Source of the DNA: Phaeodactylum tricornutum CCAP 1055/1
Taxonomy: Eukaryota; Bacillariophyta; Bacillariophyceae; Surirellales; Neidiaceae
NCBI RefSeq assembly: GCF_000150955.2
Contig: NC_011695.1
Coordinates: 248,001 to 312,000 of the forward strand
DNA: 64,000 nucleotides
Reading direction: 5' to 3'
A program made the position numbers and the translations under genes. The notes under the pieces were generated by a model, which saw only the letters and a list, made by a program, of their open reading frames with translations, was not told where the DNA came from and did not search any database. Below are positions 21,104 to 23,824 of this stretch, piece by piece. The number at the start of each line of letters is the position of its first letter. Position 1 is the first letter of the stretch.

Positions 21104-23824
21104 TTATTTTTTCCGAATCACACTCAGCCCGTCTCGTATGGGTAGTACTAATACCTCTACCCGTGGATCCCTTACAATTTCGCTGTTGAAGCGGTGCATT
21201 TTGTTTGCCAGTTTTCGGGCTCGGCGATTCTTCCGTCGCTCCAGCTCTTCCGTCGTTTCGTCTTCCACCATGGAGGCAAAATGCCCAGCAGAAGCTTCTA
21301 GTACCAATCCCTTCCAAAGGACATTGTCGACCACTATGAAACCGCCTTTTTTCAAAACACGATCACTGGACAAGCAAGCTTCCGTATATTCCAAAAGCCG
21401 CGTTTTGTCGGCATCTACAAAGACCAAGTCGAAAGGGGCTGGCTGAACATCGCCTCTACCCGCTGCCATCTCTTCCATGGTAGCCAATGCATCGGTAACG
21501 TGGAACAGTTCGCATCCCACCGTGCCTCCGTCATACTCTAGTCTGACAAATTTCTTGATATTGGACGGAATCCTGTCTAGTCCACCATTTCGTAGAGCAC
21601 ATAAGGCTTCGGAGGCTTCTTCACCATGCCCGCTTCCTGCCAGAATTTTCATCTGTGCTACCGCTACGTCAAAAGCGCGTTGATCCCTTTCCATACTCAT
21701 AACAAAAGCACCACTCTCACGGTTGCCACGTGTCATCCCTATAACATTGGCAGCGTTTGAGGCTCCTTCCAAAAGACAAGCGGTTGCGTATCCTGTAAAA
21801 GTCCCCAGTTCCAGAACGCGACCCTCACGTGACATGGAAGCCAGTTGCGCTAAGAGACGCCCTTGTGACGCCCCTGAGACCATATGCGATCCAGTCGGAA
21901 TGAGCGCCTTTGTATTGAATTCAAGTTCGCGATATATTGATGGAGTTGGAGACGAATGACCCATACTGTAGTCGTCCAAAGAGCTGTAGACGATCGAGTC
22001 CGTCTTACTTTCCAAAGCTACACCTGAGGATACCAATCCACGCCGAGGACTCATCAAACCGTTGAGCACTCTATTGCGACAAGCATCTGAGCATGTGCCA
22101 TGGAAGGCAGTTTTGCAGTCCTGACACTGAATCATTCGTTGATGGCAATTGTCGTTGAGGCAGTTGCTCACGAGTGATGTCTCGGCTGCACAAGTTATGC
22201 AGCTCCCCAACGTATCATCTGTAATTGCGCGTCCCAATCTTCCGTCAAACACAAAATTGGTTCCTTTGAACATCGGTTCTTCTTCCTTGGCCTCCTCGCT
22301 AAGCTTTCGATCGTAGGCAATAATTCCCCCAGCCAATCGTGACACATTCGTGAAGCCCATTTCCTGTGTTACGTACGCCCCAACTTTGACGCAACGGATT
22401 CCGCCGGTGCAGTACATCATAATGGGGGCATCCTTGGGCGTCCTCGCCAAACGGTCCTTGAGCACCTCCCAAGTTTCTCGAAATGATTCCGTCTCCAGAG
22501 GTTCGGCTCCTTCGAATCGTCCCACACTCGTTTCGTATGTATTTCGACAATCAATAATCAGGGGAGCGAATTCTTCCCTGCCCTCCTCACGCAGAGTCTT
22601 GGCTTCTTTGACCTTTTCATGCCATTCCATGGGAGGCATGTCGTATCCAGCTGACTGCCAGTCGAGAGACTGATCAAGCCCATCTGCCACAATCTGATTG
22701 CGGACTCGAACATGCAGGTTACGGAATGGAGGTGCCGGCTTTCCGTTGACAGGAACACCGGCCGTCGCAAAATCCTCCACAGTCAAAGGTTTTGGATCGA
22801 TATTGATACCGTTCTCCATATACGTTCCGAGCTCTCGTATTTCACGGCAGCAGGTACGAAATTGCTCTAGGACATTGGTTGGGACACTCATTTGGGCATT
22901 TACGCCTTCTTGTGCAACGTAGACTCGTCCAAGTGCGTGAAAAGGTTTCCAAAGTTTCCGCAACGTTTGGGCAAAGTCTTCTGGATCCGCAATTCCCTCC
23001 GGCGGGAAGGCGTAAAAGCTTAGCATTGTCATGGATTTGCTCTGATTGGGATCCGGCATGCTCTGCAGATACGCTGGAGGCCGCGGGGGTAAGGGTGCGT
23101 TGGGGTCACGGCGCACGTGGATGACAATGGCCGGTCGCTTCAGCAAGTGTCGTTTTTCCGCAAAGAGCTCATCGGCTACCCGGAAAGTCCGCGCCACATC
23201 CTCGTCTGTGGTAACGTCCCAAAACCCATCGGTCGCGTTTTCGGCGGAACTAATGATCGTGCCGTCTTCTTCGATGACGGGAAATCCCGCCGACAATATA
23301 AAGGACGATTTTCGTAGGGCTCGGAAGAATGAGTGTAGCTCAAACTTGAGAGCATTTAAGGAAGTGACCACCGCCGATTCTTGTTCGACAAAGACGCGTC
23401 CACGTTTTTCCCGTCCCGATAGCTTGAGCTCTTGTCGGAGTTCGTCACATACCGAAACCTTAATGGCGTACAAGATGGGGACGGTGTGACTATCCGTAGT
23501 GTTGTATAGAAGTCGTTTGAGCCGTTGATTGCGTTCGTTAGATTGCTGTACTGCCCGACCACGGGCATCCTTTTTGGCACGGAATGTCGCCAACCGTTGT
23601 TCCACCAGTTCCAGATTGGTCGGGACTCCCTGCACACGCAACGTTGATGCCATGAGCGGTGGTCCGGAAGAACCCCAACCACTGGCCGAATACGTTCTCG
23701 AAGCCGTTCGTCGGACAATAAATGATGGTGTAGAGATACTTCTCCGACCGCTCACAAGCGAGCACCGATAAGATAGTGGCAGCATGAATAAGACTAGCTG
23801 TATGAGTAGCCTTTCCAAGTTCAT
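21104..23824 (-). CDS. Fusion of tRNA U34 hydroxylase TrhO and TrmR-like O-methyltransferase
   Basis: 906 residues from the ATG at 23824, which begins a signal-type segment (LLIQLVLFMLPLSYRC). After a 240-residue unique region, residues about 255-600 are the TrhO/YceA (UPF0176) family: FYAFPPEGIADPE, VYVAQEGVNAQMS, a rhodanese domain with the catalytic loop CTGGIRC (Cys472-Cys478) and the Cys-rich tail CITCAAETSLVSNC. Residues about 630-905 are a family-3 class I O-methyltransferase: VLELGTFTGYATA (SAM site, about 672), VFVDADK (about 803), and VVDNVLWKG with the metal-binding Asp-Asn. TrhO makes 5-hydroxyuridine at tRNA position 34; TrmR (B. subtilis YrrM) methylates it to 5-methoxyuridine. 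One chain may therefore catalyse both steps, probably in an organelle. Confidence 0.85.
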   Translation of the reverse strand: MNLERLLIQLVLFMLPLSYRCSLVSGRRSISTPSFIVRRTASRTYSASGWGSSGPPLMASTLRVQGVPTNLELVEQRLATFRAKKDARGRAVQQSNERNQRLKRLLYNTTDSHTVPILYAIKVSVCDELRQELKLSGREKRGRVFVEQESAVVTSLNALKFELHSFFRALRKSSFILSAGFPVIEEDGTIISSAENATDGFWDVTTDEDVARTFRVADELFAEKRHLLKRPAIVIHVRRDPNAPLPPRPPAYLQSMPDPNQSKSMTMLSFYAFPPEGIADPEDFAQTLRKLWKPFHALGRVYVAQEGVNAQMSVPTNVLEQFRTCCREIRELGTYMENGINIDPKPLTVEDFATAGVPVNGKPAPPFRNLHVRVRNQIVADGLDQSLDWQSAGYDMPPMEWHEKVKEAKTLREEGREEFAPLIIDCRNTYETSVGRFEGAEPLETESFRETWEVLKDRLARTPKDAPIMMYCTGGIRCVKVGAYVTQEMGFTNVSRLAGGIIAYDRKLSEEAKEEEPMFKGTNFVFDGRLGRAITDDTLGSCITCAAETSLVSNCLNDNCHQRMIQCQDCKTAFHGTCSDACRNRVLNGLMSPRRGLVSSGVALESKTDSIVYSSLDDYSMGHSSPTPSIYRELEFNTKALIPTGSHMVSGASQGRLLAQLASMSREGRVLELGTFTGYATACLLEGASNAANVIGMTRGNRESGAFVMSMERDQRAFDVAVAQMKILAGSGHGEEASEALCALRNGGLDRIPSNIKKFVRLEYDGGTVGCELFHVTDALATMEEMAAGRGDVQPAPFDLVFVDADKTRLLEYTEACLSSDRVLKKGGFIVVDNVLWKGLVLEASAGHFASMVEDETTEELERRKNRRARKLANKMHRFNSEIVRDPRVEVLVLPIRDGLSVIRKK

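Follow-up and report, generated by a model that had tools for sequence, protein, structure and literature searches.

In Bacillus subtilis the combination of TrhO and a family-3 methyltransferase (MT) produces 5-methoxyuridine at the tRNA wobble position (mo5U34), and the same work, by Sakai et al. (2019), names a yceA-trmR fusion in Phytophthora sojae, Phytophthora ramorum and Phaeodactylum tricornutum as one of several clues that led to the discovery of TrhO (PMC6599085). In its passages on the fusion these three eukaryotes are called bacterial species, and eukaryotic TrhO homologues are said to suggest modification of the xo5U (5-oxygenated uridine) type there. The gene studied here, at positions 21104..23824 on the minus strand of our window (the whole stretch of 64,000 nucleotides analysed, P. 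tricornutum CCAP 1055/1 contig NC_011695.1, positions 248,001 to 312,000), is that same fusion, and since PMC6599085 already names it in P. tricornutum and two Phytophthora species, neither the fusion nor its general meaning is new and the initial annotation's view that it was undescribed in eukaryotes has to be withdrawn. The fusion is treated in a clause and a figure legend of that paper, where neither a PB1-like domain nor targeting comes up, nor a wider distribution or a product, and a search of the literature on TrhO, the fusion and Phytophthora found nothing beyond it. The main additions here are a PB1-like domain in the fusion protein and the bacterial coupling between TrhO and related MTs; plastid-type presequences in many diatom orthologues are also new. 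We consider it moderately probable that the product is a nucleus-encoded, organelle-imported bifunctional tRNA enzyme which would make 5-hydroxyuridine (ho5U34) and then mo5U34, most likely in the plastid.

The minus-strand frame is open from an ATG at 23824 to a stop at 21104-21106, giving 906 residues with no intron needed. Curated Pfam cut-offs were exceeded by UPF0176_N, the acylphosphatase-like domain of TrhO (residues 266-378; 22691..23029), by Rhodanese (residues 407-504; 22313..22606), by the cysteine-rich Rhodanese_C (residues 520-583; 22076..22267) and by Methyltransf_3, matched as two stretches of which the best covers residues 774-906 (E 1.6e-27). As the initial annotation had proposed, one chain combines a full TrhO half with a family-3 O-methyltransferase half, the catalytic residues being intact in both, and the P. 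tricornutum gene is confirmed as a real, conserved fusion of the two. A structure model of the full protein (predicted local distance difference test, pLDDT, 83.9; predicted template modelling score 0.57) places a flexible linker between the halves (residues 592-615; 21980..22051; pLDDT below 50 for residues 592-610). A database protein of 99% identity (P0002) starts at M58, and translation of the 906-residue frame may begin there instead of at M1.

A homologue search from the P. tricornutum fusion gave 291 matches, of which the best 120 were listed. The named closest homologues among these are mostly diatom proteins, and the motifs CTGGIRC and DNVLWKG were both exact in 103 of the 120 (17 differ). 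Named holders of the fusion among the matches listed were Seminavis, Fistulifera, Cylindrotheca, Nitzschia, Thalassiosira and two Triparma species (Bolidophyceae), so that other diatoms, and Triparma, do share it, a point which the initial annotation had left to be checked; a search seeded from Triparma gave a list (best 120 of 399 matches) that mostly repeated these proteins and added six identifiers. The domains of both halves occur in at least seven MMETSP (transcriptome-source) entries among the matches listed, which for other diatoms bears on whether the halves are separate transcripts, a refutation that the initial annotation had allowed for. No oomycete fusion was recognised among the best 120 of 291 or the best 120 of 399 matches, in which many entries are without an organism name, and for this reason the oomycete fusions are taken from PMC6599085 only. 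One fusion homologue (P0081) is labelled Alexandrium tamarense, a dinoflagellate, and has a sequence like those of centric diatoms; it is either contamination or a diatom-derived gene.

E. coli TrhO needs C200, T201, G203 and R205 of its catalytic loop and K112 and R114 of a basic strand (PMC6599085). By alignment, the loop (E. coli C200-C206) is CTGGIRC at residues 472-478 (22391..22411), where the essential residues C472, T473, G475 and R477 are each kept in 59 of 59 aligned fusions, and the strand residues are R373 (59 of 59) and R375 (58 Arg, one Lys), encoded at 22700..22708, the E. coli protein being included in the alignment. The CTGGIRC loop and the MT residues D804, D833 and N834, ten residues in all, do not vary among the 59 fusions. 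In a 52-sequence tree the fused TrhO halves formed one group (support 100) with the TrhO of E. coli and one from Bacteroidota (L060), and of the bacterial sequences in the comparison E. coli TrhO had the highest identity to them (37% over 299 positions); later TrhO trees were built without six long-branched or short alphaproteobacterial sequences and without loci lacking a full frame. The best Foldseek match was B. subtilis TrhO with tRNA-Ala (9j5o; E 5.0e-21, target template modelling score 0.82), followed by Legionella 4f67. With this grouping and this fold match, the TrhO identity of the N-proximal enzyme half is supported. The protein thus shares with TrhO (YceA/YbfQ) the three domains, the CTGGIR loop, the basic strand, the tRNA-bound B. 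subtilis fold and the E. coli grouping, while it differs in adding the MT and a PB1-like domain and in scoring slightly under the NCBIfam equivalog cut-off. The latter counts against our interpretation: against the NF001133 cut-off of 170 bits, the whole protein reached 160.2 and its TrhO half 164.6, and we therefore file the protein as TrhO-type and not as an NF001133 equivalog. Human TSTD2 is also a eukaryotic TrhO-type rhodanese, and as described in PMC10135228 it has two known domains only and no MT.

Seven further TrhO-type frames were found in the P. tricornutum genome (contigs C1, C4, C5, C8, C13, C18 and C21; L004-L010), all with an intact CTGG[IV]RC loop. None appears to be fused, since just one other Methyltransf_3 place was found in the genome, in a distinct gene that is COMT-like by eye. 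Only one of the seven has a basic residue at the position of E. coli R114, so the substrates of the other six may differ, and six of the seven form a separate clade (support 100) in the 52-sequence tree; the paralogue L010 was placed among alphaproteobacterial TrhOs with weak support. As the genome holds eight TrhO-type genes, ho5U34 need not come from the fusion gene, a further point against the function that we propose. A loop of the form CTGG[IV]KC, in which Lys replaces the Arg essential in E. coli, was seen in ten Bacteroidota TrhO loci (L053-L059, L061, L062 and L066).

The C-terminal half (residues 616-906; 21107..21979) was recognised as a family-3 O-methyltransferase by Pfam, pairwise and fold comparison. 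In alignment its metal ligands D804 (21413..21415) and D833-N834 (21323..21328) correspond to D133, D159 and N160 of B. subtilis TrmR (YrrM), a set that is not TrmR-specific because all MTs compared except COMTD1 share it. It is most unlikely that this half is inactive or regulatory and that only ho5U34 is made by an active TrhO half, as nothing supports this directly and the three metal residues do not vary in any of the 59 fusions. The family-3 fold, the D-D-N metal set and a basic insertion loop are common to the fusion and TrmR, but the fusion has VDNVLWKG and GTFTGYAT where TrmR has TDNVLFKG and GTAIGYSA, and its loop is longer.

Whether the half is TrmR, as the initial annotation held, depends on whether function or descent is meant. 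The identification is plausible by function. Against it, a pairwise search put SynOMT (3cbg), 2hnk, 5lhm, 3tr6 and COMTD1 above TrmR; fold comparison, with tRNA-bound TrmR at rank 16, does not separate the MT subfamilies. In a 45-sequence tree, whose bacterial sample (20 of 33 loci plus L072) was skewed by the patterns used to find it, [VLI]VDNVLWK above all, the fusion MT halves (support 100) fell in neither the TrmR clade nor the general MT clade; nearest to them was a group of Bacteroidota MTs, at a weak support of 64. The approximately unbiased (AU) test accepted placements with Bacteroidota (0.63), with TrmR (0.53) and with the broad MT group (0.156) alike, leaving the three statistically tied, so that TrmR by descent is neither supported nor rejected by these sequences. 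A single bacterial donor for both halves was considered and rejected, the TrhO half grouping with E. coli and a Bacteroidota metagenome-assembled genome (L060) and not with Sphingobacteriales; with the MT placements tied as well, no donor is claimed. Grouping with caffeoyl-CoA MTs, which the initial annotation had named as evidence that would count against it, was rejected (AU p 0.010, with two plant sequences only).

This last result bears on the idea that the MT half is a small-molecule (catechol or phenylpropanoid) O-methyltransferase fused to TrhO by chance. The best pairwise PDB matches are indeed small-molecule or uncharacterised MTs, and Rv0187 of the same family methylates flavonoids and free ho5U, with no activity detected on ho5U-tRNA in the work reported (PMC6543040); however, the fusion is kept across diatoms and Bolidophyceae, the caffeoyl-CoA grouping is rejected and an arginine-rich loop is present, and we regard a chance fusion as very unlikely. 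The loop, RRKNRRARKLANKMHRFN (residues 863-880; 21185..21238; by alignment), has in its last 18 residues before FN 6-9 Lys or Arg and no Asp or Glu in 11 of 11 fusions. The same 18 positions hold 7 Lys or Arg in B. subtilis TrmR and 6 in 8k1f (named a tRNA 5-hydroxyuridine methyltransferase), 5, 4 and 2 in the uncharacterised TrmR-clade members 3ntv, 2gpy and Anaplasma 4oa5, and 0-4 in 3cbg, 2hnk, 5lhm, 1sui, 8gxo and 2avd. On the other side are the Bacteroidota MTs (2-5) and the SAR11 MTs (2-4): as these are linked to TrhO without such a loop, it is no general mark of TrhO partners, and as the feature was also picked after the sequences had been read, it is supportive and not diagnostic.

Coupling of related MTs with TrhO was found in bacteria. 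Among 51 genomes of the family of L044 (SAR11, labelled Pelagibacteraceae; query genome included), 43 had the MT and 38 had TrhO, five having the MT only, eight neither and none TrhO only. The two-by-two test of this distribution (p 2e-6) overstates the association, since contig breaks can lose both neighbours together; adjacency is independent of it, and the MT lay directly before TrhO on the same strand in all 38 TrhO-bearing genomes, with 2-18 bp between the matched stretches. In the three SAR11 loci that were read (L044, L046 and L050), gatC, gatA and gatB, recognised by eye, precede the pair. The two activities are thus coupled in SAR11 as in the fusion, here as neighbouring genes, but they are separate proteins, the MT lacks the arginine-rich loop and it belongs to the general MT clade. 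Adjacency is not general, since across 96 genomes sampled from the whole class (30 with TrhO; flanks of up to 1.5 kb) the MT was beside TrhO in only 2 of 30 loci, one being the SAR11 seed and the other L072, in divergent orientation.

When a Sphingobacterium MT was searched against 80 Bacteroidota genomes, among them the one it came from, a strong match (E 2.5e-49 or better) was found in 18, of which 17 had TrhO and the 18th a U32 peptidase; TrhO was present in 10 of 15 genomes with a middle match, 12 of 19 with a weak match and 3 of 28 with none. This association is confounded by kinship and by oxygen tolerance or anaerobic lifestyle, which lessens its weight for our interpretation, and U32 peptidase genes are common in the sample (42 of 80 genomes). 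Among 21 MT-bearing genomes drawn from 22 of the 33 bacterial MT loci (L018 left out), 15 had TrhO, three a U32 peptidase and no TrhO, and three neither. Two of the three with U32 peptidase alone are genomes of about 200 kb (L037 and L049, Candidatus Shikimatogenerans), extremely reduced endosymbionts in which the MT and the U32-peptidase gene are kept and no TrhO was found. The alternative hydroxylase TrhP belongs to the U32-peptidase family, and in three Bacteroidota genomes (G141, G173 and G184) a gene of this family is found no more than about 2.5 kb from TrhO. The SAR11 and Bacteroidota coupling suggests that family-3 MTs outside the TrmR clade also methylate ho5U34. A rather improbable alternative is that the fused MT acts on ho5U34 to give another final product, or on another RNA hydroxyl (ho5C) with TrhO hydroxylating elsewhere: sequence does not fix the product, and MTs beside or accompanying TrhO are not one clade in the MT tree, but the characterised B. 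subtilis pairing of TrhO with a family-3 MT makes mo5U34 (PMC6599085).

The initial annotation overlooked a conserved N-terminal domain at about residues 70-240. It comprises a long helix (residues 70-107) and a beta-grasp domain (residues 118-239; together 23108..23617), the latter looking like a PB1 domain by its modelled fold. Residues 60-250 matched no Pfam family at E up to 10. PB1 domains are defined by an acidic OPCA stretch and a basic patch, and in the aligned fusions D207 is present in 59 of 59, D209 in 54, Lys or Arg at position 122 in 58 and D187 in only 41. An earlier idea that the domain is a duplicate of UPF0176_N (profile comparison probability 0.9%) was replaced by the PB1-like fold.

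The presequence (residues 1-57; 23654..23824), delimited from sequence and model, has a hydrophobic stretch followed by a Ser/Arg-rich part with no acidic residue after E4, and is mostly unstructured in the model. Of the best 120 homologues, 101 had the N-domain motif and 69 of these start with Met and a long presequence; a hydrophobic stretch was found in 45 of the 69 and a small-x-small-Phe motif after it in 23, compared to 7.1% of 200 shuffles of the same N-termini, in a test written after the N-termini had been seen. This motif belongs to the ASAFAP type described in PMC5462543. Less favourable to plastid import are the P. tricornutum presequence itself, with a hydrophobic stretch but no ASAFAP-type Phe, and the 24 of 69 orthologues with no hydrophobic stretch. 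The organelle location proposed in the initial annotation is thus upheld by the presequences of many diatom orthologues and weakened by P. tricornutum's own and by the oomycetes. Oomycetes, including Phytophthora, have no plastid. Since Phytophthora species are reported to hold the fusion (PMC6599085), the same chemistry may occur in the mitochondrion or in both organelles, the fusion having first served mitochondrial tRNAs in an ancestral stramenopile before some diatoms redirected it. The absence of the Phe motif from the P. tricornutum presequence and several others fits this, as does the pairing of the MT with TrhO in the alphaproteobacterial SAR11 family; but ASAFAP-like presequences occur in 23 of 69 diatom-type orthologues, and the fused TrhO half goes with E. 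coli TrhO and not with alphaproteobacterial TrhOs, where L010 is found instead (weak support). We consider such a mitochondrial site, alone or beside the plastid, unlikely, and the plastid more likely than the mitochondrion as the compartment.

The plastid would offer suitable substrates. The plastid DNA of Navicula incerta encodes one U34 tRNA each for Ala, Leu(CUN), Pro, Ser(UCN), Thr and Val (PMC11767216). Most four-codon boxes are likewise read by a single U34 tRNA in the type of chloroplast that PMC8877259 reviews, with an unidentified modification on U34 of the Pro, Ala and Val tRNAs and perhaps those of Ser and Thr. The same review reports that mass spectrometry found no xo5U derivatives in Chlamydomonas, a finding against plastid mo5U34, and no report of mo5U in plastids was found in the open-access literature. 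The P. tricornutum assembly gave no Photo_RC (psbA-type) match, so the plastid genome is probably not in it.

In the bifunctional plastid enzyme that we favour, the TrhO half would use O2 to convert U34 to ho5U34, and the C-terminal half, with S-adenosylmethionine and a divalent metal, would methylate the 5-hydroxyl to give mo5U34, so that the ionisable intermediate would be capped by the same chain; the two-step route to mo5U34 is likely. The arginine-rich loop may contact the tRNA, the PB1-like domain may oligomerise the enzyme, and the probable substrates are the single U34 tRNAs of the Ala, Pro, Ser, Thr, Val and Leu(CUN) boxes, most likely those of the plastid. Substrate, product, order of steps, compartment and oligomerisation are what we infer. 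More tentatively, diatom plastids might contain mo5U34 from a fusion enzyme that assembles through PB1, perhaps into filaments, and keeps hold of the tRNA from hydroxylation through methylation.

If MTs outside the TrmR clade do methylate ho5U34, the reading of poorly annotated family-3 MTs would change, and SAR11 would make mo5U via a second, TrmR-independent MT lineage. For the diatoms, a plastid enzyme for both steps would be a concrete candidate for the chloroplast U34 modification; if diatom plastids do carry mo5U34, no organelle would, as far as literature searches show, have had a wobble modification of the xo5U type described before, and the finding would suggest the chemical identity of the modification of U34 in chloroplast Pro, Ala and Val tRNAs.

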